A stretch of DNA of 43,816 nt from Patescibacteria group bacterium (GTDB taxonomy: Bacteria; Patescibacteriota; Microgenomatia; Woykebacterales; RBG-16-39-9b): NCBI GenBank assembly GCA_022574495.1, contig JACZRW010000004.1:1-43816 (forward strand), given 5' to 3'. The notes under the pieces were generated by a model. That model was not told the DNA's origin. It made no database searches and saw nothing but the letters and a program-made list of their open reading frames with translations. The position numbers and the translations under genes are program-made. This document shows positions 675 through 43,816 of the stretch, piece by piece; within the stretch, counting starts at the first letter, position 1; each line of letters begins with the position of its first letter.

Positions 675-683
675 TTTTTATTA

Positions 684-2776: not shown

Positions 2777-2783
2777 TAGTTAA

Positions 2784-2789: not shown

Positions 2790-2843
2790 GCAAAAATAGA
2801 GGTTAGCTTCCCAACGCGAGCGGTTTTGATTCAAAAATAATTA

Positions 2844-4193
2844 TTACTCAACCTTTACAATATTACCGAATTCAAGATTAAAAATTTCATTTATCCTCAC
2901 TCCAAAATTTAAATTTTGCCCTCCAATCAATATTAATGTAGAAATTGCCACTACCCTACCTTTATCATCAAATATAGGCCCTCCACTACTTCCACCAGAT
3001 ATTGGGGCATCTATTTGTATGTAATTTGCTCCCTGGTACTCTCTATCCAGAGCACTTACTATTCCCTGAGAAACAGAATTTTGAAGACCTACCGGATTTC
3101 CTATTACCGTCACTTTTTCTCCAGATTTAAGATTATTACTATCACCAATATCTACAGTCGGTAAATCTTGTTTATTTATTTTCAATATAACTATGTCTTT
3201 TTCTTTGTCGTAATCAATTACTTTGGTAACCACATACATATCTTTATTCGTTAACGATACCGCCACCTTTTTTGCTCCTTCTATCACGTGATAATTAGTA
3301 ACTATCACCCCATCTGAATGAATAATAAAACCACTCCCAAAAGCTAAATCGGTCTTCACCAACAACACCGCATCGCCTTGATCACCCACAATCTCCTCTG
3401 ATGTTTTGTCTTTCTCACCTTCAGAAATTTCTATACTATAATCATTGTTACCATAATTTGCGGATATTAAAAGAGAATCAAAATTCTCTGGCTGAGTTGT
3501 CAAAAATTGATCAAGTGATTCTAATCTTTGAGCGTCTTCTTCTGGTAGATATGAGTAAGGCCCTAGGGTGAATGCCAATACGACTATTAGTCCAACTATC
3601 GAATAAATAATTGAATTAACTATAATTGGAATCAGAAATCTTTTATCTTTTCTTAAAACGTATGTCTTTGCAATCTTATCGTGAAGTCCTTGTTTATTAT
3701 CATCAAACGCTACCATAATAAAACCAAGTCCGAAAAATAATGCAGATATGTAATATAAAAGGGTTCTTCCCAGTGCTTTGGCAAAGCTGAGCCTACTTCT
3801 TTTCTTTGCATCTATCACCTTCAACCCCCACAATACTTTACCAAAAGTTGTACTATAAGTAGATTCGGCCAGAGTGAAATATAAAACAAAAGTTAAAGCG
3901 AAGAATATATATCCGATAAAATCATTCTGTATATAAAAGCTTAATATTCCTAATACAATAGATGCTAAAATGAAAACTATCAGGTAATCCACGGTGAAAG
4001 CAGCTACCCTTATCCAAAATCCTCCCAAATGGGTGTATTGGGAGTACTCCTTTGAAAGAGGGGTTTGAGTGGTTGTAGCAGTATTTTGAACGTTTTGGCC
4101 TCCAATATTGGGGATTCTCTCAATACTCTTACCACAAAACTCACAAAATTTACTATTATTTAGCACAGCTTTTCCGCATTGAGGACAGTACAT
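2844..4193 (-). CDS. Zinc-ribbon / RDD membrane domain / trypsin-like protease fusion
   Basis: A 449-residue three-part protein. Residues 1-20 form a zinc ribbon with two CxxC pairs (Cys3, Cys6, Cys17, Cys20). Residues ~55-182 form an RDD domain with hydrophobic helices and the FGKVLWGLKVID motif, and a further helix lies at ~187-210. Residues ~265-445 are an HtrA/DegP-type serine protease with a complete triad: His302 in TNYHVI, Asp333 in KDIVILKI and Ser403 in GSSGGP. No PDZ domain follows. The protease is predicted to face outside and the zinc ribbon inside. Quality control or signalling at the membrane is inference. The gene starts 49 bp after the end of zwf, with its own -10 box. Confidence 0.88.
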   Translation of the reverse strand: MYCPQCGKAVLNNSKFCEFCGKSIERIPNIGGQNVQNTATTTQTPLSKEYSQYTHLGGFWIRVAAFTVDYLIVFILASIVLGILSFYIQNDFIGYIFFALTFVLYFTLAESTYSTTFGKVLWGLKVIDAKKRSRLSFAKALGRTLLYYISALFFGLGFIMVAFDDNKQGLHDKIAKTYVLRKDKRFLIPIIVNSIIYSIVGLIVVLAFTLGPYSYLPEEDAQRLESLDQFLTTQPENFDSLLISANYGNNDYSIEISEGEKDKTSEEIVGDQGDAVLLVKTDLAFGSGFIIHSDGVIVTNYHVIEGAKKVAVSLTNKDMYVVTKVIDYDKEKDIVILKINKQDLPTVDIGDSNNLKSGEKVTVIGNPVGLQNSVSQGIVSALDREYQGANYIQIDAPISGGSSGGPIFDDKGRVVAISTLILIGGQNLNFGVRINEIFNLEFGNIVKVE

Positions 4194-4201
4194 CTACATT
4201 T

Positions 4202-4207
4202 ATTTTA
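4202..4207 (-). promoter_or_regulatory. -10 box for the RDD-protease gene
   Basis: TAAAAT lies 8 nt before the ATG at 4193 on the minus strand, consistent with a leaderless transcript. No clear -35 box and no Shine-Dalgarno sequence are visible in the 49-bp gap. Confidence 0.45.
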
Positions 4208-4242
4208 GCGTAAATAAATTCAAATATATAGGAAGATAAAAA

Positions 4243-5754
4243 TTAATTCCTAAAGTGTATCTGGCAAACGGAGAGTTGGTGGGCGAGCCAAGAGTGGCCG
4301 TCGGCTTCGATAAGTTCATCAGCCTCTTTTGGTCCCCAGCTACCTGAATCATAGTTTGGAAATTGTGGTTTGGATTGCTTACTCCAACCTTCTAATATTT
4401 TATCTACAAACCGCCAACTTTCCTCTACCTCATCTATATGAGGAAACAGTGTTTGATCTCCATTCATCACGTCTATCAATAAACGTTCGTAAGCCTCAGG
4501 AAGTGGCTCACGAAAAGCTGAATTGTAGCAAAATTCCATATCAACATTTTGAAGCTCTTTCTCAAACCCGGGCTTTTTGGCAACCAACCTCACCGCCACA
4601 CCCTCATCGGGCTGAAGCTGAAATGTTAGAAGGTTTGCTTCTGGTTTATTACTAAATTTCTCAAAAAGCCGGTGTCCTGTTTCTTTAAATTGGATAGTCA
4701 TAGAAGTGACTTTTTTCTCTAGTCTTTTACCAGCTTTTAAATAAATCGGGACCCCTTTCCAAGTAGAATTATCGATAGATGTTTTCAAAGCAACAAAAGT
4801 CTCAGTATTTGAGTCTTTATGAACCTCATCTTCCTCGCGATATCCTTTTTTGCTTTTCGCTGGACCATATTGACCTCTCACAGTAAACTTGTCCACCTCA
4901 TTTGGTTCTATAAAACGTATGGCTTTTAGCGCTTCATATTTTTCTTTTCGGATAGATTTTGCATCAAATGCTTCTGGCTCTACCATTGTAATTAAAGCTA
5001 GAACTTGAAGAAGGTGGTTTTGGACCACATCCCGCAGAACCCCAGCTTCTTCGTAAAACTCACCTCGCCCTTCTACTCCAACATCTTCTGCCATAGTAAT
5101 TTGAATATGATCCACAAATTTATTATTCAAAATAGGTTCAAAAATCTCGTTTCCGAAGCGGAATGTTAAAATATTCTGGACCGTTTCTTTACCAAGATAA
5201 TGATCTATTCTATAAATTTGCTCTTCTTTGAAAATACCAGCTAGTTTTGTAGTTAAATTCTTAGCAGTTTTTAAGTCTCTACCAAACGGTTTTTCAATAA
5301 TAATACGAGCAGGATTAGCATCCTTTGCGCAACCTTCATTTAGTTTATTTCTCTTGAGACTATCAAAAACTACTGGGAAAAAACTGGGCGCAACGGCTAA
5401 GTAAAAGATTCGATTGAAGCATATACTCCATTCTTTTTCTAAGTTATCTAAAATGGCTGACAGATCACTTAAAGAATCTTTATCATCAAAATTCGCTCTA
5501 AGATAAGTAACTTTTTCACTAAATCTTTTCCACACTTCTTCATCTACCCCAGATCTTGAATATTTTTTTAGAGAAATCAAAAGCTCATCACAATAACTTT
5601 TATCTGTAAACTCTTTTCGAGCAACACCAATAACTTTAAAGTTTTTAGGAAGTAGATTTGCAGATTCTAGATGATATAAAGCTGGGATGAGCCTAGAATT
5701 GGTGAGATTACCAGTCCCACCAAAAATTATCATTACCGATGGGCTTACCTTCAT
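4243..5754 (-). CDS. zwf: Glucose-6-phosphate 1-dehydrogenase
   Basis: Oxidises glucose 6-phosphate to 6-phosphogluconolactone, the entry step of the oxidative pentose phosphate pathway. The 503-residue length is normal. The N-terminal IFGGTGNLTNSRLIPALYHL is the Rossmann fingerprint (GGTGNL replaces the more usual GASGDL). RIDHYLGKETVQNIL carries the substrate-binding His-Tyr/Lys motif. IIEKPFGRDL and the C-terminal beta+alpha domain (EAYERLLIDVMNGD) are conserved. The next-but-one enzyme, gnd, is in the same window. A 6-phosphogluconolactonase gene is not seen here and may lie elsewhere, or the lactone may hydrolyse spontaneously. It has its own leaderless-type promoter. Confidence 0.97.
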   Translation of the reverse strand: MKVSPSVMIIFGGTGNLTNSRLIPALYHLESANLLPKNFKVIGVARKEFTDKSYCDELLISLKKYSRSGVDEEVWKRFSEKVTYLRANFDDKDSLSDLSAILDNLEKEWSICFNRIFYLAVAPSFFPVVFDSLKRNKLNEGCAKDANPARIIIEKPFGRDLKTAKNLTTKLAGIFKEEQIYRIDHYLGKETVQNILTFRFGNEIFEPILNNKFVDHIQITMAEDVGVEGRGEFYEEAGVLRDVVQNHLLQVLALITMVEPEAFDAKSIRKEKYEALKAIRFIEPNEVDKFTVRGQYGPAKSKKGYREEDEVHKDSNTETFVALKTSIDNSTWKGVPIYLKAGKRLEKKVTSMTIQFKETGHRLFEKFSNKPEANLLTFQLQPDEGVAVRLVAKKPGFEKELQNVDMEFCYNSAFREPLPEAYERLLIDVMNGDQTLFPHIDEVEESWRFVDKILEGWSKQSKPQFPNYDSGSWGPKEADELIEADGHSWLAHQLSVCQIHFRN

Positions 5755-5761
5755 ATAAAAT

Positions 5762-5790
5762 ATGCTACTTTACCTATACTTTTTTATCAA
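5762..5790 (-). promoter_or_regulatory. zwf promoter
   Basis: On the minus strand TTGATA (5785-5790), a 17-nt spacer and TAGCAT (5762-5767) lie 7 nt before the zwf ATG at 5754. Spacing is ideal although the -10 is not consensus. The geometry predicts a leaderless zwf mRNA. Confidence 0.55.
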
Positions 5791-5815
5791 GTGATGAGGC
5801 TTACAAACCCATCAA

Positions 5816-5843
5816 TTGACTTATTAGATCAATATAGTAAAAT
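5816..5843 (+). promoter_or_regulatory. Promoter of the RRM protein gene, with long leader
   Basis: TTGACT (5816-5821), a 16-nt spacer and TAAAAT (5838-5843). The expected start near 5850 gives a leader of ~115 nt before the RRM gene, unlike the leaderless neighbours. The leader ends in a full Shine-Dalgarno AAGGAGGTGA, 13 nt before the ATG. Long leaders of this kind are common on cold-shock and RNA-binding protein genes; regulation here is inference. Confidence 0.7.
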
Positions 5844-5964
5844 GATCTTGTACTTTTAAGTTAGTTTTAAGCGTAGCAGATCCTCCCTTCTTTAGGTTCC
5901 CCTAACAGAAAAAAGGAATACTGATCTACCTTAATTTACCTTCGAAGGAGGTGAATTTAATTTA

Positions 5965-6234
5965 ATGGCAAAAAAACTTTTTGTAGGAAGTCTTCCGTTT
6001 GAAACAACTTCGGAAGAATTGGATAAACTTTTCGCTGGGATTGGCGATGTAGAATCTGCAAATATTGTGACCGATCGTATGAGTGGTCGCTCTCGTGGAT
6101 TTGGTTTTGTCGAAATGGCAAAGGATGAAGATGCAACCAAAGCAGTCGAAAAACTTAATGGTTCGGAAATCGGTGGTCGAAAAATTGTAGTAAATGAAGC
6201 AAGACCAAGAGAAGAAAGACCAAGCAACGGTTAG
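5965..6234 (+). CDS. RNA-binding protein with a single RRM domain
   Basis: An 89-residue protein that is essentially one RNA recognition motif. RNP2 is LFVGSL near the N-terminus and RNP1 is RGFGFVEM at residues ~49-56, in the standard beta-alpha-beta-beta-alpha-beta order. A short Arg/Glu-rich tail (RPREERPSNG) follows. Bacterial proteins of this type bind single-stranded RNA and often act as RNA chaperones at low temperature. Unlike most genes here it has a strong promoter, a ~115-nt leader and a perfect Shine-Dalgarno sequence, which suggests high and perhaps leader-regulated expression. Confidence 0.93.
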   Translation: MAKKLFVGSLPFETTSEELDKLFAGIGDVESANIVTDRMSGRSRGFGFVEMAKDEDATKAVEKLNGSEIGGRKIVVNEARPREERPSNG

Positions 6235-6248
6235 TTTTTTAACTTAAA

Positions 6249-6779
6249 TTAGTTAGAAAATTCACCTTCGAGTACATGGGCTTCGGGAACTCCGTCTAAG
6301 CCATTTGTTTCTATTTCTTCGGTAATTACGACACTATTGTAGCTAGAATAATCTTTATTGCTAGTAAAGTTTAGTTTGTAGCTATTCCCTTCTTTTTCAA
6401 GTTTTCCAGTTGAGAAAAATGGCGGTGATAGTGACATATTCACAATCCAACCTTCGTAAAATTTCCCGCTGGCAGGATCACTAATATTTGCATTAACAGT
6501 GTGAATGAATGTTCCATCGGCAAAAATTCTTGTAGCCGTACCAGAACCGGTGTAGTTACCTACTGATTTTAAAGTAATTGTCTCTACACTCACCTGAACA
6601 CTTTGGGAATTAGAACTATCTGCACTTTTTGCGGTAGGATCTTCTTGCTCTTGAGTGTTTTCTATTGGTGTAACCGTAACTTCAGCTTCATCAGTTTTAT
6701 TCGATTGTATATACCAATATGCTCCGCCAAAAATAACAAGTACTACAGATATAACAATCACCCAATAGATTGGTTTCAT
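6249..6779 (-). CDS. Membrane-anchored protein of unknown function
   Basis: 176 residues. An N-terminal membrane helix (YWVIVISVVLVIFGGAYWYI) is followed by a Thr/Ser/Glu-rich linker and a C-terminal beta-rich region of about 110 residues (VGNYTGSGTATRIFADGTF onward) ending in HVLEGEFSN. I recognise no family. The globular part is predicted to be outside the membrane. A minus-strand TTGACA with a 17-nt spacer and TAAGAG lies 11 nt before the ATG and may be its promoter. It ends 14 bp from the convergent RRM gene. Confidence 0.7.
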   Translation of the reverse strand: MKPIYWVIVISVVLVIFGGAYWYIQSNKTDEAEVTVTPIENTQEQEDPTAKSADSSNSQSVQVSVETITLKSVGNYTGSGTATRIFADGTFIHTVNANISDPASGKFYEGWIVNMSLSPPFFSTGKLEKEGNSYKLNFTSNKDYSSYNSVVITEEIETNGLDGVPEAHVLEGEFSN

Positions 6780-6853
6780 ATACCACTTTACTCTTACGCA
6801 TATATAAGTTACTTGTCAAGCTTTCATACTTATTCTAAAATACACACATACTT

Positions 6854-6880
6854 TGTCATCCTGAACTTGATTCAGGATCT
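6854..6880. repeat. Dispersed palindromic repeat
   Basis: TGTCATCCTGAACTTGATTCAGGATCT contains a perfect 8-bp stem, ATCCTGAA/TTCAGGAT, around the loop CTTGA. The same loop and overall layout occur at 742-767 with compensatory stem changes. It lies 22 bp upstream of the metalloprotease start. Confidence 0.7.
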
Positions 6881-6902
6881 TTTAATTCAGTCTATAAGCA
6901 GC

Positions 6903-7256
6903 ATGACCAATGAAGTATTCGAAAAACTAGTCGTAAAGGCATTAGATAATATTCCAAAATTTTTTAAAGATAAGCTGGATAATGTAGACGTGGTGGTAGA
7001 AGATTGGCCCAGTATGCAAATGGCCAGGGGAAGGCTTTTGCTAGGACTTTATCAAGGTGTGCCGAAGACTGTAAGAGGCGCTGGCTATACCATGGCTCTA
7101 CCAGATAAGATAACAATTTTTAAGGGCCCTATAGAATTAGTTTCTCACGGGGATGAAGAAACGATAAAAAGTGTAGTGAAAGATACCGTAGAACACGAAA
7201 TCGCCCACCATTTCGGGATTTCAGATGCAAGATTGAGAGAGCTAAAAAATAAATAG
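6903..7256 (+). CDS. Metallopeptidase, zincin-like (minimal MMP-like family)
   Basis: About 117 residues, matching the small zincin-like metallopeptidase family with an HExxH-type motif. HEIAHHFGISD near residue 98 supplies the two His ligands and the catalytic Glu; LLGLYQGVP and LPDKITIFKGPIE are the family's other conserved blocks. The ORF-track frame begins at 6603, but that upstream part runs through the palindromic repeat and antisense to the neighbouring gene. The ATG at 6903 gives the proper family start. No signal peptide is seen, so the protein is probably cytoplasmic. Its substrate is unknown. Confidence 0.85.
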   Translation: MTNEVFEKLVVKALDNIPKFFKDKLDNVDVVVEDWPSMQMARGRLLLGLYQGVPKTVRGAGYTMALPDKITIFKGPIELVSHGDEETIKSVVKDTVEHEIAHHFGISDARLRELKNK

Positions 7257-7257
7257 C

Positions 7258-7572
7258 TTAGGTTTTTGTTTCATTCATTACCCAATTTAGGTATGGGATA
7301 TTTACTTGATCAGGTTTTACAGTTACTAACTCCGGAACTTCGTAATCTGAATGTTTCTTAAAATAATCTTCTATCTTCTTAAAATTTTCTTTTCTGGTTT
7401 TGATGATCATGAAAGTTTCTTTTTCATCTAATATCTTACCTTTCCACCAATAAGAAGACTCGACAGGAAAGAGACTATAGCAGGCAATAGTTCTTCCTTT
7501 TAGTAAACCTTTTCCAATTTTTATCGCTAAGTCTTTTTTATGTAGAGTTGAAAATATATAAATCATATTCAT
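7258..7572 (-). CDS. cutA: Divalent-cation tolerance protein CutA
   Basis: 104 residues, the normal CutA1 length. The hallmark SSYWWKGKI segment follows the N-terminal IYIFSTLHKKDLAIKIGKGL, and the C-terminal half holds MIIKTRKENF...HSDYEVPE. The family forms PII-like trimers; it was named for copper tolerance but its biochemical role is unsettled. The start overlaps the stop of the S51 peptidase gene by 4 bp, so the two are co-transcribed and probably translationally coupled. The N-terminal MNMIYIF leaves a two-codon ambiguity in the start. Confidence 0.88.
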   Translation of the reverse strand: MNMIYIFSTLHKKDLAIKIGKGLLKGRTIACYSLFPVESSYWWKGKILDEKETFMIIKTRKENFKKIEDYFKKHSDYEVPELVTVKPDQVNIPYLNWVMNETKT

Positions 7573-8192
7573 ATATTTATTTCTGGGCCCTTACCAACTA
7601 ATTTATAATTATCACCTTTAACTAAAATTGCTTGGTCATCAGTGAGTATTTTAAATTCATATTTACTTTTTTGTATTTTTTCTTTCAAAATACTTTTATA
7701 TTCCGGCACGTAGTGAACCATAAGTAAAAATGGTACTAAGTTCATGGCAGTTAAATCTGTCAGGCCAAACCGATTATGTTCGTGTATCCAGTCTGCTTGT
7801 TCTATAGTGGGTCCGGCTACGTAACTTCCCGCACTTACGCCAATGTATATTACCCCTTTTTCCAAAAGCTCCTTCACCACTTTATCAAAACCGCTTTCTT
7901 TAATACTTTTCAACAAATAATAAGTATTTCCACCCTGAACGTAGATGATATTTGTATCTTTCAATAATTTTCTAACCTTGCCTTCTGTCATACCACTTAT
8001 ATCCGCTTCGGTAACCTGAAACCCTAGCTCCTTCATTATTTGGGTTTCTTTATGAAAATAATCTTTATTTTTTTCATCTATTGAAGCTGTGGTTATATGG
8101 GTGAGTTTTAATTCCTTTGGAGGTTTGGGAAGGATTTTTAAAATTTCCTTATTAACTTCCATTCCCGCCGAAGTTAAAAGCATTGTTTTCAT
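7569..8192 (-). CDS. Peptidase S51 (dipeptidase E-like)
   Basis: 207 residues. The nucleophile elbow GVSAGSYVAGP places the Ser at position 120, and IIYVQGGNTYYLLK is the conserved oxyanion-side motif of the S51 family (Asp-dipeptidase PepE / cyanophycinase group). At ~207 residues it is slightly shorter than enterobacterial PepE. Whether it cleaves Asp-X dipeptides cannot be read from the sequence. First gene of a two-gene operon with cutA. Confidence 0.85.
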   Translation of the reverse strand: MKTMLLTSAGMEVNKEILKILPKPPKELKLTHITTASIDEKNKDYFHKETQIMKELGFQVTEADISGMTEGKVRKLLKDTNIIYVQGGNTYYLLKSIKESGFDKVVKELLEKGVIYIGVSAGSYVAGPTIEQADWIHEHNRFGLTDLTAMNLVPFLLMVHYVPEYKSILKEKIQKSKYEFKILTDDQAILVKGDNYKLVGKGPEINI

Positions 8193-8198
8193 GAGGGA

Positions 8199-8227
8199 AT
8201 TTTATCAGTTTGATAGACCCACTGCAA
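8199..8227 (-). promoter_or_regulatory. Promoter of the S51 peptidase-cutA operon
   Basis: Minus strand: TTGCAG (8222-8227), 17-nt spacer, TAAAAT (8199-8204), then 6 nt to the ATG at 8192. This predicts a leaderless mRNA; there is no Shine-Dalgarno sequence. Confidence 0.65.
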
Positions 8228-8275
8228 ACACTTGGAAAGTTTATGGGCAAATTGGTAAGATCTCTCACCTCCCTT

Positions 8276-8629
8276 CTAATTCACACGAGATCTTCCAATC
8301 ATGATTAAGAAATAATCCACTAGGCCAGGTATTGGATCAGCACTAAACTCAAATGTTCTAGTACCAGCCAATACCTTTACTCGCCCCACTGCACCGTTTT
8401 CTTCACGCTCAACTTCAGTTAAAACTTGCAGAAGCGGGTTGCGGTGTATGTATTGAGACAATTCCACAAACATGGCTAACTCAATCATCTTTGTTCGGAT
8501 CACTTCACGCTCTAGCTTAATTGATTGATCGAACTTCTTGGTCTCTCTACGACTCAGTAATACCAAAAATAGCATGAAGGTCATGATAACTGGAGATACT
8601 ACCCACGAAAACAGGGTTTCCATTTCCAT
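8276..8629 (-). CDS. Small membrane protein of unknown function
   Basis: 117 residues. An N-terminal membrane helix (VVSPVIMTFMLFLVLLSRR) is followed by a helical segment rich in charged residues and a short C-terminal domain (VKVLAGTRTFEFSADPIPGL). No recognisable family. Unlike its neighbours it has a Shine-Dalgarno-like AAAGGAG/GAAAGG run before the ATG. An ATG two codons downstream is an alternative start. Confidence 0.6.
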   Translation of the reverse strand: MEMETLFSWVVSPVIMTFMLFLVLLSRRETKKFDQSIKLEREVIRTKMIELAMFVELSQYIHRNPLLQVLTEVEREENGAVGRVKVLAGTRTFEFSADPIPGLVDYFLIMIGRSRVN

Positions 8630-8712
8630 CCTTTCGAAGCTCCTTTCTTCTTATTGGATCTAGTTTCTGTTTGAGCAGAAGGATCTTACTATTTTATAGG
8701 TGAGAAAGCAAA

Positions 8713-9171
8713 TTAGTTTACTTGTTCGTCGTTTAAGAAGACGGTAACGGTGGCGTCTTCTGAAACTTGTACTTCTCCAGAAAATTCTTTTTCTGTCACT
8801 ACTTGTGCACACACGTTTACGTTTTCTAAATCGTCAACTGCGAGTTCATTAACATTTAGTTTTATTTGCACTTGTTCAGGAAAAGATTCTAGTACATTTG
8901 CCTTTACTTCCAACGTATAACAAGGGGTGGGGACTTGTACACTACCACTGTATTTTAATACCCCATTTTCATAAGTGGTTTTTACCGTTACTTGATCGGT
9001 ATTTACTACAGTTTTAGTATCAGATTTCTGGGTGGTATTAACAACGTTATTTATTTGAGGATTTATCCCTTCTTGGTATTTCATACCTAAATAAAAACCA
9101 ACGAATGGTAAAGCGATAAATAAAACCATGGCGATAACTTTTGAATACCAAGTTACTTGATTATATTTCAT
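8713..9171 (-). CDS. Secreted/anchored small protein with CPR-type leader
   Basis: 152 residues. The N-terminal WYSKVIAMVLFIALPFVGF plus LGMKYQ resembles a leader I associate with many small exported proteins of Patescibacteria. It is followed by a Thr/Val/Asn-rich linker and a beta-rich domain. Two Cys (PTPCYTLEV and VNVCAQVV) could form a disulfide outside the cell. Function unknown. A TGGTAAAAT box 6 nt before the ATG suggests leaderless expression. Its promoter overlaps that of the divergent cyclophilin gene. Confidence 0.75.
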   Translation of the reverse strand: MKYNQVTWYSKVIAMVLFIALPFVGFYLGMKYQEGINPQINNVVNTTQKSDTKTVVNTDQVTVKTTYENGVLKYSGSVQVPTPCYTLEVKANVLESFPEQVQIKLNVNELAVDDLENVNVCAQVVTEKEFSGEVQVSEDATVTVFLNDEQVN

Positions 9172-9177
9172 AACTAA

Positions 9178-9202
9178 ATTTTACCAGATTACATGTTATA
9201 AT
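9178..9202. promoter_or_regulatory. Divergent pair of leaderless promoters
   Basis: Minus strand: extended -10 TGGTAAAAT (TAAAAT at 9178-9183), 6 nt from the ATG at 9171. Plus strand: extended -10 TGTTATAAT (TATAAT at 9197-9202), 7 nt from the ATG at 9210. The two -10 boxes are only 13 bp apart, so the two polymerases probably exclude each other. Confidence 0.65.
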
Positions 9203-9209
9203 GATCCCC

Positions 9210-9806
9210 ATGAATAATTTTTGGCTAATTGTAATAATCATCATTTTTGTAATTGGAGCAGGATTTGTATTGGTAAGATCAGGAGATAATGCTAATATAA
9301 ATACTGTGGAAGAAGCCACTCAGAGTGCAAATCTTTCCGGAAAATATACTGAATTCCCTGGAGAACTTTCTGAAGAAGAATTAACCGGAAAAAATATTCG
9401 TATAGAAACTTCGAAAGGTACCATTGAGTTTGAACTTTTTGGAAAAGATGCTCCAAAAGCGGTTAGCAATTTTATTTTTCTTACTAACGAAGGCTACTAC
9501 AATGGCTTAACCTTTCACCGAAGAGATGAAGGATTCGTCATTCAAGGAGGGGATCCTTCAGGAGATGGATCTGGTGGCCCAGGTTATCAATTTGAAGATG
9601 AGACAGTTACCAAAAATTACGATAAAGGAATAGTAGCCATGGCAAATGCCGGTCCAAACACAAATGGAAGCCAATTTTTCATAATGCTCGCCGATAATGA
9701 TACCCTCCCCAAAAATTTCACTATATTTGGAAAGGTTACCAAAGGTATAGACGTGGTAGATAAAATCCAAGTCGGCGATGTGATGGATAAGGTGAATGTT
9801 TTCTAA
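9210..9806 (+). CDS. Peptidyl-prolyl cis-trans isomerase, cyclophilin type, membrane anchored
   Basis: About 198 residues: an N-terminal membrane helix (NNFWLIVIIIIFVIGAGFVLV), a linker, then a complete cyclophilin domain. Conserved active-site blocks are FHRRDEGFVIQGGDP (catalytic Arg), AMANAGPNTNGSQFFI and the loop before FTIFGKV. The isomerase domain should lie outside the cytoplasmic membrane and assist folding of exported proteins. I prefer the ATG at 9210 because the TATAAT box lies 7 nt before it; the track start at 9201 overlaps that box. First gene of an operon with the redoxin (2-bp gap) and the alpha/beta hydrolase. Confidence 0.92.
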   Translation: MNNFWLIVIIIIFVIGAGFVLVRSGDNANINTVEEATQSANLSGKYTEFPGELSEEELTGKNIRIETSKGTIEFELFGKDAPKAVSNFIFLTNEGYYNGLTFHRRDEGFVIQGGDPSGDGSGGPGYQFEDETVTKNYDKGIVAMANAGPNTNGSQFFIMLADNDTLPKNFTIFGKVTKGIDVVDKIQVGDVMDKVNVF

Positions 9807-9808
9807 TT

Positions 9809-10360
9809 ATGGCTATTGAATCAACCACTATAAATCTTGGCACAAAAGCAGAAGATTTCGATCTCCCCGCCACTGATGGTAAAATCTATTCTCTAAATTC
9901 ATTTAAAGATTCAAAAGGCTTGGTGATTGCTTTTACCTGCAACCACTGCCCTTATGCTCAAGCGGCCTGGCCAATTTTAACAAAACTCGCCGATGAATTT
10001 ATAGATAAGGGGATTTCTTTCGTAGGGATAAATCCAAATGATGAAAATCTTTATCCGGAAGATAGTTTTGAAGTGATGAAGGAAAAAATAGATGAATGGG
10101 GAATAAATTTTCCATATCTTCGAGATGAGGAACAAGAGGTTGCCAGAAAATATGGTGCAGTTTGCACTCCTGAGATTTTTGTTTACGATCAAGATCGTAA
10201 ACTATACTACCATGGACGAGTAAATGATAATTGGAAGGAACCAGAAAAAGTAACTAAAGAAGATCTCAAAGATGCTCTAAATTCACTATTCCAAGGAAAA
10301 TCAGCCCCAACAGACCAAAACCCTTCAATGGGTTGTTCGATAAAATGGAAAGATAGTTAA
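9809..10360 (+). CDS. Thioredoxin-fold redoxin (peroxiredoxin-like) protein
   Basis: 183 residues, AhpC/TSA-redoxin family, Prx-like subgroup. TCNHCPYAQ places a CxxC at Cys44/Cys47. VCTPEIFVYD is the conserved cis-Pro region and GCSIKWK near the C-terminus is typical of this subgroup. It has no signal peptide. It probably reduces peroxides or acts as a thiol oxidoreductase; the exact substrate is not deducible. It starts 2 bp after the cyclophilin stop, and its own TAA shares a base with the ATG of the next gene. Confidence 0.88.
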   Translation: MAIESTTINLGTKAEDFDLPATDGKIYSLNSFKDSKGLVIAFTCNHCPYAQAAWPILTKLADEFIDKGISFVGINPNDENLYPEDSFEVMKEKIDEWGINFPYLRDEEQEVARKYGAVCTPEIFVYDQDRKLYYHGRVNDNWKEPEKVTKEDLKDALNSLFQGKSAPTDQNPSMGCSIKWKDS

Positions 10361-11253
10361 TGAAAAGAAATCGTAAACTAATCCTAATCCTCCTAATCTT
10401 TTTTATCTTAATCTACATCGGGTTCTCATTTTTTGTAGCTAATGAAATGACTAAACCAATGGCCCCCAGACTAGATGTTTACCCAACTGTTGTTTCGGAA
10501 AATTTTGAGGCTATCGAGTTTAAATCTACTGATGATTTAACCTTGAAAGGCTGGTTGTTCAGTACCGATACGAGTAAATTAGTGATCATGGTCCCAGGTC
10601 TTACCCAAAACAGGATCAACACTGCCTATTACGCCATATGGATTGCAAAAGATTTGGTGGGGGCGGGATACAACGTGATAATGTACGATCCTCGTGCAAC
10701 TGGACTATCAGAAGGGGATAGAGTTTCATATGGAAAATTTGAAGTAGCCGATATTCTGGGGGCAGTTGAATTTGCTAAAGGGCGTGGGTTCAAACCGGAA
10801 AAAATTGCGATTTTAGGAGATTCTACTGGTGCAATCACTATCTTAATGGCGGCAGATAAGCTAAACAAGGTTGGCGCTCTAATAATAGATTCCGCCGCCA
10901 CAAATTTTAAACCGTTAATAATAAATAGACTTTGGACAGAAAAAAACGTTCCAACTTTCTTTGCTCCAGCAATTTTCTTTTTCACTGATACAGTATTTAA
11001 AACCAAAATCGGAGAGGTAAAACCAATCGAACAATTACCCCTAGTACCTGAACGGAGATTTTTGTACTTACACGGGGAATCAGATGATTTATTTCCTATA
11101 GATGAAAGTAAGAGATTGCTTGAAGCCTCCAATCCTGAGAGCAAGCTGGTAATTTTCTCAAAAGGAAACCATGTGGAGACTTTTAAATCAGACCCAGATC
11201 TTTACAGAAAAGAAATATTCAATTTTCTAGAAAGTGAGCTAGGAGATTTGTAA
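10360..11253 (+). CDS. Alpha/beta hydrolase with N-terminal membrane helix
   Basis: 297 residues. A membrane segment (ILILLIFFILIYIGFSFFV) precedes an alpha/beta-hydrolase fold of the serine aminopeptidase/monoacylglycerol lipase type. GDSTG carries the nucleophile Ser155, the acid is in HGESDDLFP, and the His is in KGNHVETF. MVPGLTQNR supplies the oxyanion-side loop. The catalytic domain is likely extracellular. Substrate unknown: a lipid or peptide ester is only a guess. Last gene of the operon; it ends 24 bp from convergent rpoC. Confidence 0.85.
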   Translation: MKRNRKLILILLIFFILIYIGFSFFVANEMTKPMAPRLDVYPTVVSENFEAIEFKSTDDLTLKGWLFSTDTSKLVIMVPGLTQNRINTAYYAIWIAKDLVGAGYNVIMYDPRATGLSEGDRVSYGKFEVADILGAVEFAKGRGFKPEKIAILGDSTGAITILMAADKLNKVGALIIDSAATNFKPLIINRLWTEKNVPTFFAPAIFFFTDTVFKTKIGEVKPIEQLPLVPERRFLYLHGESDDLFPIDESKRLLEASNPESKLVIFSKGNHVETFKSDPDLYRKEIFNFLESELGDL

Positions 11254-11277
11254 TTAAATATAAAAGTATAGCAGTGT

Positions 11278-14200
11278 CTATTCTGTCCTAACAACTTCTT
11301 TATTCTCTATTTTAACTTCTTTCAGTTTCACTTTTTCTGCTGAAACTACTGATTTCTCTATATCCGATGCCTCTTTTACTCTATCAAGTCTTGCTCTCTC
11401 ACCGGTTGGAATCAATCTACCTATAATTACATTTTCTTTAAGACCTCTAAGATAATCCACTTTTCCGGAAATTGCTGCGTCTCTAAGAACAGATGTAGTT
11501 TCTTGAAAACTAGCTGCCGATAGTACAGATTCAGTATAAAGAGATGCTCTTGTTATACCTAAAATAACTACAGAGGCTGTGGATGGTTCTCCACCTTCAG
11601 CTAAAACTTTTGCATTTTCTTCTGCGAATCTTGTTTTATCTACAAGCTCACCTGGCAACAGGGGAGTATCTCCCGAAGACTCTATTTTAACTTTTTCTCC
11701 CATTTTTCTTACTATTACCTCAAAATGTTTGTCGTTAATAGGGGCTCCTTGAGACTCATAAACCCGTTGAAGCCCGTGTATTATGTACTGCTGAACCGCT
11801 TTTATTCCCTTAAGCTCTAGAAGGAGCTTCAAATCTAGATGACCACCGGTCAATCTATCACCAACTTCAACTTCCTGTCCATCTTTTACTAATAAATCTG
11901 AAGAAACAGGGATCACATATTCTTTATCCTCTTTTGAGGATTTTTCTTTAGATCTCACCTTTACCTTTCTTCCTTCGTCTGATTCAATGAGTTCTACTTT
12001 TCCAGAAATCTCAGTAATAACTGCAGCGGTCTTTGGTAATCTACACTCAAAAATTTCATCAACACGTGGTAATCCTTGAGTGATATCAAGACCAACCACA
12101 CCTCCTAAGTGAAAAGTACGCATAGTCAACTGAGTTCCAGGTTCACCAATAGATTGGGCTGAAATTATGCCTACCGGAGTACCAATTGAAACAAGTTTCT
12201 TAACCGATAAGTCAATACCATAACAACTTATACACATACCATACTTAGTTTCACAAGTAAATGGGGATCTTACAATAGCTCTAGAAATTTTAGCTTTTTG
12301 CACCTTTTCATAATTATCTTCGGCAATCAACTGACCCCTCTTCAAAACCAGTTTGTTTTTTTCATCTAGTAAATTCTCAGCTAGCACCCTACCAAAAAGC
12401 CTATTCACCAATGGAGTACTTCGTTCCCCCTCTTCATCTATAAGAATGCCTTCCTTAGTCTTACAATCCTCCTCCCTAATTATAACGTCATGAGCAACAT
12501 CTACTAACCTTCTAGTCAAATATCCAGCGTCTGCTGTCTTCAGTGCTTTATCAACTAATCCTTTCCTAGCACCTCTCGTTGAAGTAAAGTATTCGTAAAT
12601 ATCTAACCCTTCTCTAAAATTACTTTTTGATGGGAGTTCAACTATTCTACCTAAAGGATCAGCAACCAATCCCCTCATACCAGCTAATTGCTTTATCTGG
12701 TCTCTTGAACCACGAGCACCAGATTCTTGCATCAACTTAAGGGGGTTATCTTTGGAGAGGTTTAACCAAGTTTTTTCATCAATATCAGCCGTAACATTAG
12801 ACCAAACTTCTTCTACCAATCGTGTTTTCTCATTCTCAGTTATTAATCCTTTTTGGAAGTTATCATCTATATCCCCCACCTTATTATCAGCTTGTTTTAT
12901 TAAATCCTTCTTTTCTTTAATTATTTCACTATCCGTAATAGACAATGAGATACCAGAATCTGTCGCAAAACTAAAACCAAGGTCTTTTATATAATCTATA
13001 AGTTGTACTGTTTTATCTACACCAAATCTATTTTGGCTTTCCGTCAGAATTTTTTTAAGATCTGAGCCTACTATATCCTTATTGAAAAAGCTAAACTCTT
13101 TAGGCAAACCATCATTAAATATTACTCTTCCAACAGTAGTAGTAATAATTTCCTTTTCATACAAAATTTTAATTGGTTCACGAAGATTTAGATTATGTGA
13201 CTGGTAAGCTGTGATCGCTTCTTCTTGAGTAAGAACTCCATTTGGTTCTCCATCTTCCATCTGAGTCAGATAATAAATACCAAAGAAGACGTCGCGGTTA
13301 GGTGTCATTATAGGCTCACCATCCGCAGGTCTCAATAGATTATTAGTAGACATCATAAGATTGATTGCTTCATCCTGAGCCGCCTTTGAAAGAGGAATGT
13401 GAATCGCCATTTGATCCCCATCAAAATCTGCTCCATATCCAGCACACACTGATGGGTGAATACCGATTGCGCTCCCTTCTGTTAAAATTGGGTAAAAAGC
13501 TTGAAACCCTAACCTGTGCAAAGTCGGGGCTCTGTTTAATAGCACTGGGTGTCCTTTGATGACTGATTCTAAGATATCCCAAACCTCCTCATCCCGTTTT
13601 TCAAAAATATTTTTGGCGCTTTTTACATTTGGTGCATACCCTTGAAAAATTAATTCTCTTAGTACATAAGGTTTAAAAAGCTCTAGCGCCATTTCTTTAG
13701 GAATTCTACATTCATTAAGTTTAATATCTGGAGCAACAATGATTACACTTCTTCCCGAATAATCTACCCTCTTACCCAAAAGATTTTGCCGAAATCTTCC
13801 TTGCTTTCCCTTCAACATATCCGAAAGTGAACGAAGTTGCTGTCCAGCAACCGCTCTCGTTGCTGGTTTTTGGGGAGAATCTATCAATGCATCCACTGCT
13901 TCCTGTAACATTCTCTTTTCGTTACGTAAAATTATTTCTGGTGCGCCAAGATCTGACAATCTTTTTAAACGGTTATTTCTATTTATTACTCTTCTATACA
14001 AATCGTTCAAATCAGATGTTGCAAAACGTCCTCCAGAAAGTTGAACCATTGGACGTAAATCTGGAGGTATAACAGGTAGATAACTTAGAATCATTCTATC
14101 CACACTAACTCCTGAATTTCGAAGTCCTTCAACAATCCTTAGAGTTTTTGTGGCTTTTAGCTGCTTTGGCCCTGAACTATTTTGGACAATCTCCCGAAGC

Positions 14201-15051
14201 TCTTTAGACATCTTCGCCAGATCAATGGTTTTGAGAATTTTTAGGAGGGCCTCCGCTCCCATACCAACTTTAGCAAAAGATTCAATTCCGTAATCAACAA
14301 ATTTTAGATACTCATCCTCAGTAAGTAAAGATTGTTTTGCAACCGCTTCAACTTTATCTAACAAATTCTTGTTTTCCAATTCTATTTTACCAATCTCTGC
14401 TATCTCTTCATCTTTAATATTTGCAATTTTAGCTTTCATTTTGAGCCTTATCTCATCAATTATGAGTTCCTTTTGCTCTTTATTCTTAATACCCAGTTTC
14501 TTAATATCTTTCTTCTCTTCTTTTTCTACTTCTAGTATTCTTTTCTTGAATTCCTTCTTAATACCTTCTTTTTCTTTTTCCTCTCTCTCCTTAATCTTAG
14601 TGAGTGCCCCTTTCCTCTTATCTTCATTAACATCAGTGACGAGATATTGCGCAAAATAAATAATAGAATCCAAACTCCTCGGAGAAATGTCTAAAAGCTG
14701 AGACAGCTTTGAAGGAGAACCTCTGAAAAACCACACATGAGCTATGGGAGCCGCCAAATTTATGTGTCCCATTCTTTCTCTTCGCACCTTTGATTGGGTA
14801 ACTTCAACACCACACTTATCACAAATCACACCTCTATAGCGTATTCTCTTATACTTTCCACAATAACACTCCCAGTCCTTGGTGGGACCAAATATTTTTT
14901 CGTCAAATAGACCATCTTTCTCAGGCCTAAAAGTCCTATAATTTATTGTTTCTGGTTTTGTAACTTCACCATAAGACCAACCGGCAATATCGTCCGCCGA
15001 AGCTAAAATTATTCTTAATGCTTCAAAATCTTTGATTTCTCCAACGCTCAT
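11278..15051 (-). CDS. rpoC: DNA-directed RNA polymerase beta' subunit
   Basis: 1257 residues. The N-terminal zinc site is CYCGKYKRIRYRGVICDKC (Cys62, 64, 77, 80). The catalytic Mg-binding loop is ADFDGDQMAIH. Other conserved blocks are LLNRAPTLHRLG (bridge to active site), GARGSRDQIKQLAGMRGLV, the second zinc site CETKYGMCISC and GEPGTQLTMRTFHLGG. Residues ~144-235 form a long Lys/Glu-rich coiled coil between the zinc domain and the clamp, absent from E. coli-type sequences at this place. The start abuts the rpoB stop with no gap; AAGGAGG inside the rpoB end is its Shine-Dalgarno sequence. Confidence 0.98.
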   Translation of the reverse strand: MSVGEIKDFEALRIILASADDIAGWSYGEVTKPETINYRTFRPEKDGLFDEKIFGPTKDWECYCGKYKRIRYRGVICDKCGVEVTQSKVRRERMGHINLAAPIAHVWFFRGSPSKLSQLLDISPRSLDSIIYFAQYLVTDVNEDKRKGALTKIKEREEKEKEGIKKEFKKRILEVEKEEKKDIKKLGIKNKEQKELIIDEIRLKMKAKIANIKDEEIAEIGKIELENKNLLDKVEAVAKQSLLTEDEYLKFVDYGIESFAKVGMGAEALLKILKTIDLAKMSKELREIVQNSSGPKQLKATKTLRIVEGLRNSGVSVDRMILSYLPVIPPDLRPMVQLSGGRFATSDLNDLYRRVINRNNRLKRLSDLGAPEIILRNEKRMLQEAVDALIDSPQKPATRAVAGQQLRSLSDMLKGKQGRFRQNLLGKRVDYSGRSVIIVAPDIKLNECRIPKEMALELFKPYVLRELIFQGYAPNVKSAKNIFEKRDEEVWDILESVIKGHPVLLNRAPTLHRLGFQAFYPILTEGSAIGIHPSVCAGYGADFDGDQMAIHIPLSKAAQDEAINLMMSTNNLLRPADGEPIMTPNRDVFFGIYYLTQMEDGEPNGVLTQEEAITAYQSHNLNLREPIKILYEKEIITTTVGRVIFNDGLPKEFSFFNKDIVGSDLKKILTESQNRFGVDKTVQLIDYIKDLGFSFATDSGISLSITDSEIIKEKKDLIKQADNKVGDIDDNFQKGLITENEKTRLVEEVWSNVTADIDEKTWLNLSKDNPLKLMQESGARGSRDQIKQLAGMRGLVADPLGRIVELPSKSNFREGLDIYEYFTSTRGARKGLVDKALKTADAGYLTRRLVDVAHDVIIREEDCKTKEGILIDEEGERSTPLVNRLFGRVLAENLLDEKNKLVLKRGQLIAEDNYEKVQKAKISRAIVRSPFTCETKYGMCISCYGIDLSVKKLVSIGTPVGIISAQSIGEPGTQLTMRTFHLGGVVGLDITQGLPRVDEIFECRLPKTAAVITEISGKVELIESDEGRKVKVRSKEKSSKEDKEYVIPVSSDLLVKDGQEVEVGDRLTGGHLDLKLLLELKGIKAVQQYIIHGLQRVYESQGAPINDKHFEVIVRKMGEKVKIESSGDTPLLPGELVDKTRFAEENAKVLAEGGEPSTASVVILGITRASLYTESVLSAASFQETTSVLRDAAISGKVDYLRGLKENVIIGRLIPTGERARLDRVKEASDIEKSVVSAEKVKLKEVKIENKEVVRTE

Positions 15052-18000
15052 TTATTTTTCCTCCTTACCACTATCCTTCAAACTATGTTCTAAGGATATA
15101 TCAGATGTCTTGGAAGAGACTTCTTTACCGTTGACAACTAACTCTTTTACCTTTTCTTCCATCGTATCCTCTTCTTTTGTGTCCTTTTCAGATTCTTCTT
15201 TTCCATCGTCCACTTTGGCCCCTAATAATTCTACTTTCAACCCCAAACCATTTAATTCTTTCACTAAAACCTTAAATGATTCTGGGACTGTGGATTCAGG
15301 AATATCTACTCCTTTAACAATCGCCTCAAAGGCTTTGGCTCTTCCAACAACATCATCGGATTTGATAGTAAGCATTTCCTGCAATGTATGGGCTGCTCCA
15401 TATGCTTCAAGAGCCCAAACTTCCATTTCCCCTAAACGCTGGCCACCCATCTGAGCCTTACCACCAAGAGGTTGCTGAGTAACTAAAGAGTAAGGACCCG
15501 TGCTTCTAGCATGAACTTTCTCATCCACCATGTGCACTAGTTTCAATATGTACCCTATACCAACTGTGATTTTATTACTGTAAGGTTCTCCGGTTTTCCC
15601 ATCGCGAAGCATTATCTTACCATCCAGTGGGAGTTTAGCTTTTTTTAATTCCTCCTCTAGTTGCTCTTCGGATGAACCACCAAAAGCAGGGACCGCTGCT
15701 TTATAACCAAGTTTCTTTGCGGCCCAACCCAAATGGGTTTCCAAAAGCTGTCCTAAATTCATTCTAGAAATTACTGATAAAGGAGATAAAATAATGTCAA
15801 TTGGAGTACCATCCTCTAAATAGGGCATATCAGCAATTGGTACTACCGTAGAAATTACTCCTTTATTACCGTGGCGCCCAGCAAGCTTATCGCCAATAGT
15901 TACTTTCCTTGTTTGAGCAACTTTTACTTTTACTAATCTTTGAACACCTGGTTCCAATTCATCATTAGCCTCTTTGGACAAAATTTGAATCCCAATTACG
16001 GTACCTTTTTCACCATGGGGTATTCTCAAAGAGGTATCTCTTACTTCTCGAGCTTTTTCTCCAAAAATAGCTCTCAAAAGCCTCTCTTCGGAAGTTAGTT
16101 CGGTCTCACCTTTAGGGGTAATTTTTCCCACTAATATATCGTTAGGTCTTACTTCAGCACCAATATATACAATTCCCTGCTCGTCTAGATTTGCTAGTGC
16201 TTCTTCACTTACGTTTGGTATATCTCTTGTTGTTTCTTCCGGTCCTAGTTTAGTTTCGGTAACCGAAGACTCATACTCCTCAATATGAATTGAGGTTAGA
16301 ATATCTTCTTTTACTAAACGGTCAGAAATAATAATTGCATCTTCATAACCATATCCTTCCCAGGACATATAAGCGACTAATAAGTTTTTTCCTAAAGAAA
16401 GTTCTCCGTTGTCTGTAACTGGACCATCAACTATTAATTGTCCTTCACTCACTTTATCTGAAATTGATACTAAAGATCTTTGACTGTAAGCAGTATTTTG
16501 ATTGGACTTGGTGAATTTCTTCAACTTTATCTTGTATTCTTTCTTATCCTTTTTACCCTTAATTATAATTTCTTGGCCGTCTACATATGTAACTACGCCA
16601 TCTACTGGGCTCTTAGCAACCCTACCTATATTCTCCCCCACTACCTTCTCCATACCTGTACCAACAATAGGCGTCTCTAGTCTTACTAATGGTACAGCTT
16701 GACCCTGCATATTCGCTCCCATCAAAGCCCGGTTAGCATCATCATGGGCCAAAAAGGGAATAAGCGAAGAGGAAGCACCTACTATCTGCCACGGCGCTAC
16801 ATCTACATAGTCAACTTGATCTGCTGGACCTGTGGTAAATGAGGATTTATGTCTGATTGGTACTCTTTTATCCAAAATATGTCCGTTTTTATCTGTCTGT
16901 ATGTTTGCATGAGAAATTCTGAAATTTTCCTCATCATCTGCCATCAACCAATCTACATCATCAGTTATCTTGGGTTTCCCGTTCTTACCCTTTATAACTT
17001 TTCTATAAGGTGTTTCCAAAAAACCATACTCGTTAATTTTTCCCAACAGTGCTAGATGAGTAATTAACCCAATGTTTGGTCCTTCTGGAGACTTAATCGG
17101 ATCTATCCTACCGTATTGTGAATTGTTTACGTCGTGAACAGAAAAGCTTGCTCTCTCTCTTGTAAGACCACCAGGACCCATAACTGAAAGTCTCCTAAGA
17201 TGTTCTAGTTCAGAAAGAGAATTTATTTGATCCATAAATTGGGAAAGTTGACTACCGGCAAAGAATTCATTCAATCTTGCTACTACTGGCCGGGCATTAA
17301 TTAGGCTGGTTGGAGTAACCGCCATCACATCTGCTGATATACCCATCCTCTCTTTTATAACTCGCTCCATTTGAAGAAGCCCAACTCTAAGTGTATTTTG
17401 AATCAACTCTCCGACAGCCCTCAAGCGCCTATTTCCTAAGTGATCTATATCATCAGGAGATCCTTCTCGATTGTTTAATTTAATAAGCATCTTTACCACC
17501 GCTACTATATCTTCTGGTCTTAAAATCCAGTTACTTGGATTGTTTGGTGTCTCAAGTCCCAACCTTTTATTTAATTTGTACCTTCCAACTTTACCTAACG
17601 AGTATCTTTTAGAATTAAAGAAAAGATTCTCTAGAAGTGTCTTTGCGTTTTCAAGTACAGCCGGATCTCCTGGTCGCATCTTGTGATAAATCTCAAGAAA
17701 CGCTTCATCTGAACTACTTGTAGGATCCTTTTTAAGGGTGGTCTCAATAAACTTGTAACCGCTACTTTTTTCTAAGTCAGCAAATTGTTCAAGTATTTTT
17801 TCGTTAGTTCCATAACCCACTACTCTTAACAAAATGGTGACTGGGATTCTTCTTTTTCTATCTATTCTTACCGTTAAAACATTGTTTTTTCCAGTTTCAA
17901 ATTCTAGCCAGCTTCCTCTAGTAGGCCTAAGTTCTGCTTTATAAAGCGGCCTTCCTGTCGTTGGATCAATATTTTCTGTATAGAATATCCCAGGACTTCT

Positions 18001-26475: not shown

Positions 26476-26482
26476 TAGATCA

Positions 26483-26512
26483 ATTATCTCAAGATATTTA
26501 TAATGGTGTCAA
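26483..26512 (-). promoter_or_regulatory. Promoter of the polytopic membrane protein gene
   Basis: Minus strand: TTGACA (26507-26512), 18-nt spacer, GATAAT (26483-26488), then 7 nt to the ATG at 26475. The -35 box overlaps the restored stop codon of the upstream MGMT reading frame. Confidence 0.75.
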
Positions 26513-26794
26513 GCACGCCAAAGATATTTATTTAGATCGACTCGATTATTTTCAATTTGGACACCTTCTCCAACTAATTTACCTATTTGACCTTTTTCCC
26601 CTCCAAAAGCATAGTTTTTTGCTATTTACAACCCTGTGACATGGAATTTTTTCAGTATCAGTATTATTGTGAAGAATATTCCCAACAACCCTTGGGCTTT
26701 TCAAACCAGATATTATTGCAACCTGTCCGTAAGTTAGAACCTTACCCCGTGGAACTTGCGATATAATTTTGTAGACGATTTCTTTAAAAGCCAT
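26509..26794 (-). pseudogene. MGMT-family DNA alkyl-transferase-like protein, frameshifted
   Basis: The open frame (26579-26794) encodes MAFKEIVYKIISQVPRGKVLTYGQVA... with the active-site motif IPCHRVVNSK (Cys52), then ends in a non-family tail. Removing one base from the six-T run at 26615-26620 (A-run in the coding strand) restores NYAFGGEKGQIGKLVGEGV and continues to a stop at 26509-26511, about 94 residues, the normal length of this small family. The intact PCHR suggests an alkyl-accepting Cys, unlike alkyltransferase-like proteins with Trp there. The frameshift may be a real mutation, slippage at the A-run, or an assembly/sequencing error. Confidence 0.85.
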
Positions 26795-42019: not shown

Positions 42020-43677
42020 TTAAACTGAGCAAAATGCACCAAACTGGGCTACAGAAAAACCAATATCCAAAATATTAACATTACCGCTAGCATCAAGATC
42101 ATATATCTCATTCCAGTCTGGAGAACTTGATGTTGAACCAAAAGCAATAATTAACGCTCCAATATCAGTTATATTGACCACTCCATTTGGAGGGCTACCA
42201 ATCCCTCCTGTCCCTATCACATCAGCACATTTCGCCACAATTATTTTAAGTGTCTCTGATTCACTTGTGGCACCATGACTATTTGTAACCGTCAACTTTG
42301 CCTCCTTTAATCCATAAGAATCGTAAGTGTGGCTGGATTTTTTTCCAAATCCAAATGTACCATCTCCAAAATCCCAAGAATATGTCAGCGGCAATTGGTT
42401 TATATCGCTACTGGCCGATCCACTAAAACTCCTTGTTACAGATATGGGGCCGATTACCTCATCAACAGTGGCTATTGCGGTCGGAGGGGCAAATTGAATC
42501 TTATGAACTTGTCCACTAAAAAAAGATAGGTAGTACAAAGCACCATCTAGACCTACTTGTATATCAACCGGACCTTGTATATTAGTAGTAAAATTACTTA
42601 CAGTATAATTAGTAGGGTGTAAACTCCTAATGAAGCCTCCACCAATATCACTGAAGAAATATTTACCGGTATATTCTGAAGGAAATTGATTACCTCGGTA
42701 AAAAGCAGCCCCAGTTATCGCAAATCCCTCACTATGATTGTACGAATATATAGGGTAGGTGTAATCAAAGTTAACACAATCATCGTGATTTTCTGCATCA
42801 GAACCAAAGCTGGGCCTTCACAACCAGGCCAACCATAATTGGCTCCCTTTTCAATTTTATTTACTTCTTCCCAAGTGCTTTGCCCTACATCATTTGCAAA
42901 AATTTTTCCATCTACTGGATCGATATTAAAAGTGAAGGGGTTACGAAGCCCATACGCCCAGATTTCACCCCTTTTACCAGTTTGTCCCGCGAAGGGGTTA
43001 TCGGAAGGAATGCTTCCGTCTTTGTTAATCCGCAGTATCTTTCCGGCTAAATTACCAAGATTTTGGGAATTGTTTCCAAAATCGTTCCCCCCATCACCAG
43101 TGGCGATATATAAAAATCCGTCCTTACCAAAATGAATTCCTCCTCCATCATGGTGCCCATCACCAGAAAAAATATTACCTAATATTACCTCCTCACTACT
43201 TGAAACAGCTACGTCTGGTTTGTCACTGCTGGCAGTAAAACGGCTGACCTTACCTCTTACTGTGGTAGTGTTGACTTGGTGAGTATAGTGAATGTAAACA
43301 TATCCATTATTCTCAAAATCAGGATCTAAAGCAACTCCTATGAGTCCGCGCTCCCGATCAGTGTTTACTGACACTGTCAAAAACGGTGTGGAAAGAAGTT
43401 TACCATCTTTAATCACTCGCACATTTCCCCCCTTTTCTGTTACAAACAATCTTCCGTCTGGTGCAAAGGCCATTGAGGTTGGTTGAGAAAGTCCTGATAC
43501 AAAAATAGAGTCTTCAAAATCACCTTGTAATGGCACTGCAGCTTGGGGACCTTCTCTAGCTCTCTCTTGACTGGTAAGGACAAGATAGACAGTTAGGGGA
43601 AGGGCAGCAAAAATAAAGAAGGTCCCAATAATGGCTAGTAGGTGTTTGGGCTTTTGCATATCAACCTTATCGAACAT
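42020..43677 (-). pseudogene. Secreted PQQ-type sugar dehydrogenase with PKD and dockerin-like domains, frameshifted
   Basis: Two ORFs (42715-43677 and 42020-42538) are one gene. In the first, an N-terminal membrane helix precedes a glucose/sorbosone dehydrogenase propeller (LSQPTSMAFAPDGRLFVTEK, GDGHHDGGGIHFGKDGFLYI, GANYGWPGCEGP). The frame is then lost near 42810-42820. Adding one base in GCTTTGG restores GSDAENHDD...YNHSEGFAITGAAFYRGNQFP and runs into the second ORF. That holds a PKD domain (YSWDFGDGTFG) and two dockerin-like repeats (NGVVNITDIGALIIAFG; YDLDASGNVNILDIGF). Restored length is ~552 residues. Probably cell-surface, oxidising sugars or binding them. Real mutation or sequencing error cannot be told apart. 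Confidence 0.88.
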
Positions 43678-43780: not shown

Positions 43781-43816
43781 GGCTCCGTGGTGTAGCGGTA
43801 ACACACTACCTTTGCA
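43781..43816 (+). tRNA. tRNA, 5' half (probably Ala-TGC), cut by the window end
   Basis: GGCTCCG (acceptor), TG, D-arm GTG-TAGCGGTAA-CAC, A26, CTACC (anticodon stem), TT then TGC. This parse gives anticodon TGC, alanine. However position 3 is C, whereas tRNA-Ala normally has G3 for the G3:U70 identity pair, so the amino acid is uncertain; a shifted register would read GCA (Cys). The 3' half is outside the window. Confidence 0.8.

Follow-up and report, generated by a model that had tools for sequence, protein, structure and literature searches.

A GSDH-PKD protein with a dockerin-like C-terminus, a probable client of a protease-rich cohesin-dockerin system in a small CPR-like genome

A dockerin-like tail on a putative sugar dehydrogenase, encoded by a bacterium with a very small genome, raises the question of what such an enzyme would dock to and what would be displayed beside it. 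The gene lies in a window (the whole stretch of DNA that was analyzed, 43,816 nucleotides) that represents contig C59, one of the 67 contigs of a genome of 935,484 bases estimated to be 94% complete with 3.5% contamination. The CPR-like character first assigned to this DNA fits the genome, which measures 0.94 Mb at the estimated completeness, has family relatives of 0.6-1.0 Mb, and yielded no ribosomal protein L9 when searched; the absence of L9 is compatible with Microgenomates, without proving membership. The contig ends within the apparent 5' half of a tRNA gene at window positions 43781-43816 (GGCTCCGTGGTGTAGCGG...CTTTGCA), and ARAGORN lists no tRNA in the window, presumably because this terminal tRNA is cut.

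The domain order named in the initial annotation, GSDH followed by PKD and a dockerin-like C-terminus, was borne out by profile matches along the minus strand (Table 1). The upstream frame of 320 codons (43677-42715) carries positions 1-222 of the 332-position PF07995 profile (E 1.2e-61, 209 bits), and the downstream frame, open from 42817 to its stop at 42020, adds positions 240-322, such that the two frames together cover the profile along the propeller. The frame-joined protein, with an X at the junction, served as the query for searches. Solved GSDH relatives of the upstream part were found at E values of 1e-33 to 1e-25, including 2ism, 3a9g, and 2g8s, with soluble quinoprotein glucose dehydrogenase also among the solved relatives, and the HDGG and RNP stretches of the window protein align with the HSGG/HNGG and RNP stretches of 2ism and 3a9g. 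By comparison with sGDH, these aligned residues are taken as the catalytic His and Arg-Asn region. PqqD was not found in the genome, so PQQ would have to be external or unused; if the GSDH protein does use PQQ, the cofactor is probably scavenged from outside. The combination of GSDH with dockerin is also present in a Planctomycetia genome, and the other two GSDH proteins of the genome studied here (contigs C47 and C12) carry no dockerin.

Table 1. Coordinates and composition of the window gene and of the cohesin and dockerin genes elsewhere in the genome.
Feature	Contig or locus	Position	Strand	Remarks
Whole gene	window	43677 to 42020	minus	GSDH (PF07995) + PKD + dockerin-like C-terminus
Upstream frame: N-terminal signal/anchor and most of GSDH	window	42718..43677	minus	homology ends near 42810; stop at 42715-42717
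N-terminal signal/membrane segment, LPLTV motif	window	43555..43677	minus	charged stretch, then hydrophobic segment
GSDH (PF07995), profile positions 1-222	window	42820..43491	minus	profile match
Single-base frame break	window	42800..42820	minus	within GSDH domain
Remainder of GSDH, profile positions 240-322	window	42527..42769	minus	downstream frame, E 0.004
PKD domain (PF18911/PF00801)	window	42236..42490	minus	PKD_4 E 5.5e-17; PKD 1.2e-8
Dockerin-like F-hand repeat pair	window	42023..42229	minus	closest are dockerins on C25, C65, C13 of the same genome, 45-51% identity
First dockerin loop	window	42164..42223	minus	stretched, without usual ligands at positions 1 and 3
Second dockerin loop, DLDASGNVNILD	window	42065..42100	minus	canonical D-x-D-x-S-G-x-x-N-x-x-D
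Dockerin proteases clustered with two membrane cohesin anchors and a cohesin-dockerin linker	C25 (L017)	2-16334		CPR-size genome
Eight-gene run, genes 1-3	C25			subtilase-dockerin; M11-type metalloprotease-dockerin; signal-cohesin-like-fn3-TM anchor
Eight-gene run, genes 4-6	C25			zincin-motif protein-dockerin; unknown-dockerin; M10-type metalloprotease-dockerin
Eight-gene run, genes 7-8	C25			cohesin-Big_7-fn3-dockerin linker; signal-cohesin-like-fn3-TM anchor
Membrane-anchored cohesin protein	C11	1219-1935		
Membrane-anchored cohesin proteins	C25	5604-6794 and 15027-16334		
M11-like protein with two cohesins and one dockerin	C13			
C13-like protein; DUF4185-dockerin protein	C65			C13-like protein cut by contig end
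Two-dockerin protein, then directly signal-cohesin-TM protein	C11			

The gene is split by a one-base frame change near 42800-42820, as had been proposed, but the accompanying idea that the split separates catalytic from binding modules proved wrong, since the break falls inside the GSDH domain. When the downstream piece was shuffled 2000 times, its 265-codon frame never stayed open. Of 57 aligned GSDH relatives, 39 pass the site without changing frame, the remaining ones align over a shorter stretch, and none showed a break. Elsewhere in the window, an MGMT/ATL-like gene (PCHRVVNSK motif; 26480-26794, minus strand) is broken by a frame change as well, with its continuation (NYAFGGEKGQ...) found in a different frame, and no obvious break was seen in the other long genes. 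Since the remainder of the frame is undamaged, we attribute the GSDH break most probably to an error of assembly or sequencing, or else to a very recent mutation; two breaks in a 44-kb draft contig favor error, and the fact that no break was seen in relatives, together with the second broken gene, makes an error of assembly plausible. Were the break real, the gene would be a decaying pseudogene, and its product would be no more than a shortened propeller fragment that does not dock. That reading can point to a break that stands in the assembly, to the approximately 30 residues without homology that close the upstream frame, and to the broken MGMT-like gene, which would also suit general decay. 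We nevertheless judge it rather unlikely, as the next 265 codons contain no further stops or frame changes, the other long window genes have no obvious break, and none was seen in the GSDH relatives. Programmed frameshifting was set aside since relatives need no shift. The frame break is in itself of little importance.

The dockerin-like repeats required closer comparison. Their Dockerin_1 match reaches 16.2 bits against a Pfam cut-off of 22.9 (18.7 bits in a six-frame search) and also lies below the NCBIfam cut-off. Five sister dockerins from the same genome, on contigs C25, C65, C13, C11, and C20, are 36-51% identical to the window dockerin, whose loop 1 is lengthened by approximately 8 residues and lacks ligands 1 and 3; an altered loop 1 also occurs in two of the sisters, those of the C25 subtilase and of C13. 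A profile built from all six matches the type II dockerins 2b59, 3kcp, and 5g5d (E 3e-9 to 1e-8), with the dockerin of a family-48 enzyme (2y3n) also among the best matches and calmodulins ranking far below. Type I dockerins are the match for most of the remaining C25 dockerins, which are compact. The predicted structure of the window C-terminal piece is of low confidence (pLDDT 59 overall, approximately 50 in the dockerin part). Would these repeats instead be an EF-hand-like tail, calcium-binding or structural, in which cohesin binding has been lost? We consider this unlikely: although the score under the family cut-offs, the stretched and ligand-poor loop 1, and the poor model are what such a tail might show, sister dockerins are 45-51% identical, loop 2 is canonical, the type II match stands well above calmodulins, the altered loop 1 is shared with two sisters, and cohesins occur in the genome. 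At its other end, the window protein carries an N-terminal PLTV-type segment common to many other dockerin proteins of the genome. Dockerin and linker proteins from three loci (L017, L018, and L130) share an N-terminal INPPY...KD...(I/L)PLTV...R..A signal, which may serve export or anchoring in a lineage-specific way.

The remark that no cohesin partner is visible holds within the window but is false genome-wide, as five cohesin domains (PF00963) over the Pfam cut-off are present on contigs C11, C13, C25, and C65. The genome contains eleven Dockerin_1 matches, the window one included, and many of the ten others sit on proteases. Scanned dockerin proteins carry S8, M11-like, M10, or other zincin protease signatures, DUF4185, or no known domain, and the HExxHxxGxx(H/D) zinc-protease motif is found in five proteins of the set on C25, C13, C65, and C11. 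At one locus (L018 863-3505), a DUF4185 protein is fused to CARDB and a window-type dockerin. The most extensive arrangement is the C25 run, which is interrupted by a single unrelated opposite-strand gene. The cohesin-like domains of its two anchors align with the cohesin of the linker and gave no PF00963 match at E 0.01. The AlphaFold2 model of the linker (pLDDT 85.7) contains a cohesin that superposes on the solved cohesins 6kgc and 6kgf (TM 0.77-0.79, approximately 2.2 A); the profile built from C25/C13/C65-type cohesins had no PDB match at E 0.01, and a class-wide anchor-cohesin profile does match solved cohesins there. Two sortases are encoded in the genome, and no clear LPxTG was seen on its cohesin anchors.

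This inventory bears directly on whether the genome encodes a classical cellulosome, with the GSDH enzyme acting on sugars that the cellulosome releases. Microgenomates cohesin and dockerin genes have been read in this way before, in a study of Ca. Shapirobacterales that also cites Ca. Roizmanbacterium (PMC9123182). Here, however, the scanned dockerin proteins of an approximately 94% complete genome show no cellulase or recognized glycoside hydrolase domain over cut-off, and a multi-cohesin scaffoldin with a carbohydrate-binding module was not seen, the scanned proteins of the genome having at most two cohesins each and no such module over cut-off. We regard a cellulosome as very improbable. 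The suggestion of polysaccharide-derived sugars as substrates is likewise unsupported, as many of the dockerin clients are proteases and none is a recognized polysaccharide hydrolase.

Cohesins and dockerins also co-occur across the class. Among 280 sampled class genomes, cohesin was found in 191 (approximately 68%) and dockerin in 176 (approximately 63%), with both in 141, cohesin only in 50, dockerin only in 35, and neither in 54, corresponding to an odds ratio for co-occurrence of 4.35 (P 6.5e-8, without correction for relatedness). In a phylum-wide sample, 92 of 333 had cohesin matches. Among the top 150 matches to each of cohesin and dockerin, 18 cohesins lay within 3 kb of a dockerin against 0.81 expected; all 18 pairs were on the same strand, and the dockerin was upstream in 14. 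Twenty loci, picked mostly for visible cohesin-dockerin pairs, were read, and the common order in them was a dockerin protein, next a short cohesin bearing its TM segment at the N-terminus, and then a signal-bearing cohesin with a C-terminal TM segment, the latter often preceded by LPRTG-, LPVSG-, or LPQSG-like residues. This operon recurs in eight loci (L119, L120, L121, L124, L126, L134, L135, and L136), and in one family a XerC/D-type recombinase gene comes next. Most of the dockerin proteins in these operons are without a known catalytic domain; several carry both cohesin and dockerin, and one is a thermolysin-type M4 protease.

Taken together, the window gene probably specifies a GSDH-family enzyme that is exported and retained at the surface through dockerin-cohesin pairing, one client of a small docking system whose other recognizable clients are mostly secreted proteases, and the surface-display idea of the initial annotation is supported as an inferred reading. 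We infer that the N-terminal hydrophobic segment would direct the protein through the membrane, leaving the propeller outside as the putative catalytic part, which could oxidize aldoses or sorbosone if PQQ is available, with the PKD domain serving as a presumed spacer. The type II-like dockerin would then plug, with calcium, into one of the membrane-anchored cohesins on C11 or C25, or alternatively into the cohesin-dockerin linker proteins, such that the enzyme would sit beside secreted proteases attached in the same way. This reading is favored by the proteins that combine a signal, a cohesin, and a C-terminal TM segment, by the likeness to sister dockerins, by the shared PLTV-type signal, and by class-wide co-occurrence; counting against it are the dockerin scores under the cut-offs, the ligand-poor loop 1, the poor model, and the failure to find PqqD. 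The GSDH gene does not adjoin any cohesin gene. The hydrophobic N-terminus could itself stay uncleaved as an anchor, in which case docking would be partly redundant, and, given 3.5% contamination, a contig could be foreign to the genome.

More tentatively, and with somewhat less than even confidence, we suggest that a non-cellulosomal docking platform is common to the class: an operon places membrane-fixed cohesins, some with LPxTG-like motifs, after a dockerin protein, and two-headed cohesin-dockerin proteins could form chains. The clients of such a platform would be lineage-specific, here secreted proteases and an oxidoreductase, possibly acting on neighbor or host cells. For the question of how CPR bacteria with very small genomes retain enzymes at the surface and act on their neighbors, a genome with some ten secreted proteins that bear dockerins, proteases prominent among them, and with membrane cohesins beside them offers a concrete, testable surface-display system. 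Its relevance is widened by the occurrence of cohesins and dockerins in most sampled class genomes, and an automatic cellulosome reading of such matches in CPR genomes is unwarranted.

Comparison with known systems places these features in context. Like the soluble PQQ-type sugar dehydrogenases (PDB 2ism, 3a9g, 2g8s, and 1c9u), the window GSDH belongs to a common propeller family with alignable His-x-Gly-Gly and Arg-Asn-Pro stretches, but it has DVGQ where 2ism and 3a9g have an EHGP stretch, is fused to PKD and dockerin, and uses PQQ only putatively. Secreted GSDH-PKD proteins with the same initial order are found in Ca. Wildermuthbacteria, from other CPR genomes (L038 and G002), and these run on into other domains, with no dockerin found. 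By profile, the nearest solved relatives of the window-type dockerins are the Clostridium thermocellum CipA type II dockerins (PDB 2b59 and 3kcp); the CipA dockerin attaches a scaffoldin, whereas the window dockerin ends an enzyme and has a degenerate loop 1. OlpA of C. thermocellum is a single-cohesin surface anchor that uses SLH repeats. The anchors described here resemble it in placing one cohesin on a surface-anchored protein, and differ in using a C-terminal TM helix, which in many relatives follows an LPxTG-like motif. Among CPR bacteria, Ca. Shapirobacterales and Ca. Roizmanbacterium possess cohesin and dockerin genes as our genome does, and those of Shapirobacterales are expressed in groundwater (PMC9123182). 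In contrast to those systems, the recognizable clients here are mainly proteases and GSDH, each anchor has one cohesin, and a cellulase client was not found. A study of Saccharibacteria lists a dockerin-domain protein among essential proteins (PMC10633639). In the open-licence literature, no account was found of CPR cohesin-dockerin systems loaded with proteases. The parts are already known; newer are the prevalence of proteases among the clients and the recurrence of the operon. In ANME archaea and their sulfate-reducing partners, cohesin and dockerin proteins have been described as putative adhesins, a non-cellulosomal surface use listed together with Ig-like, CARDB, and S8 domains (PMC10553843). 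That case is read as adhesion between partners, and the genome studied here stands out from it by its protease clients.
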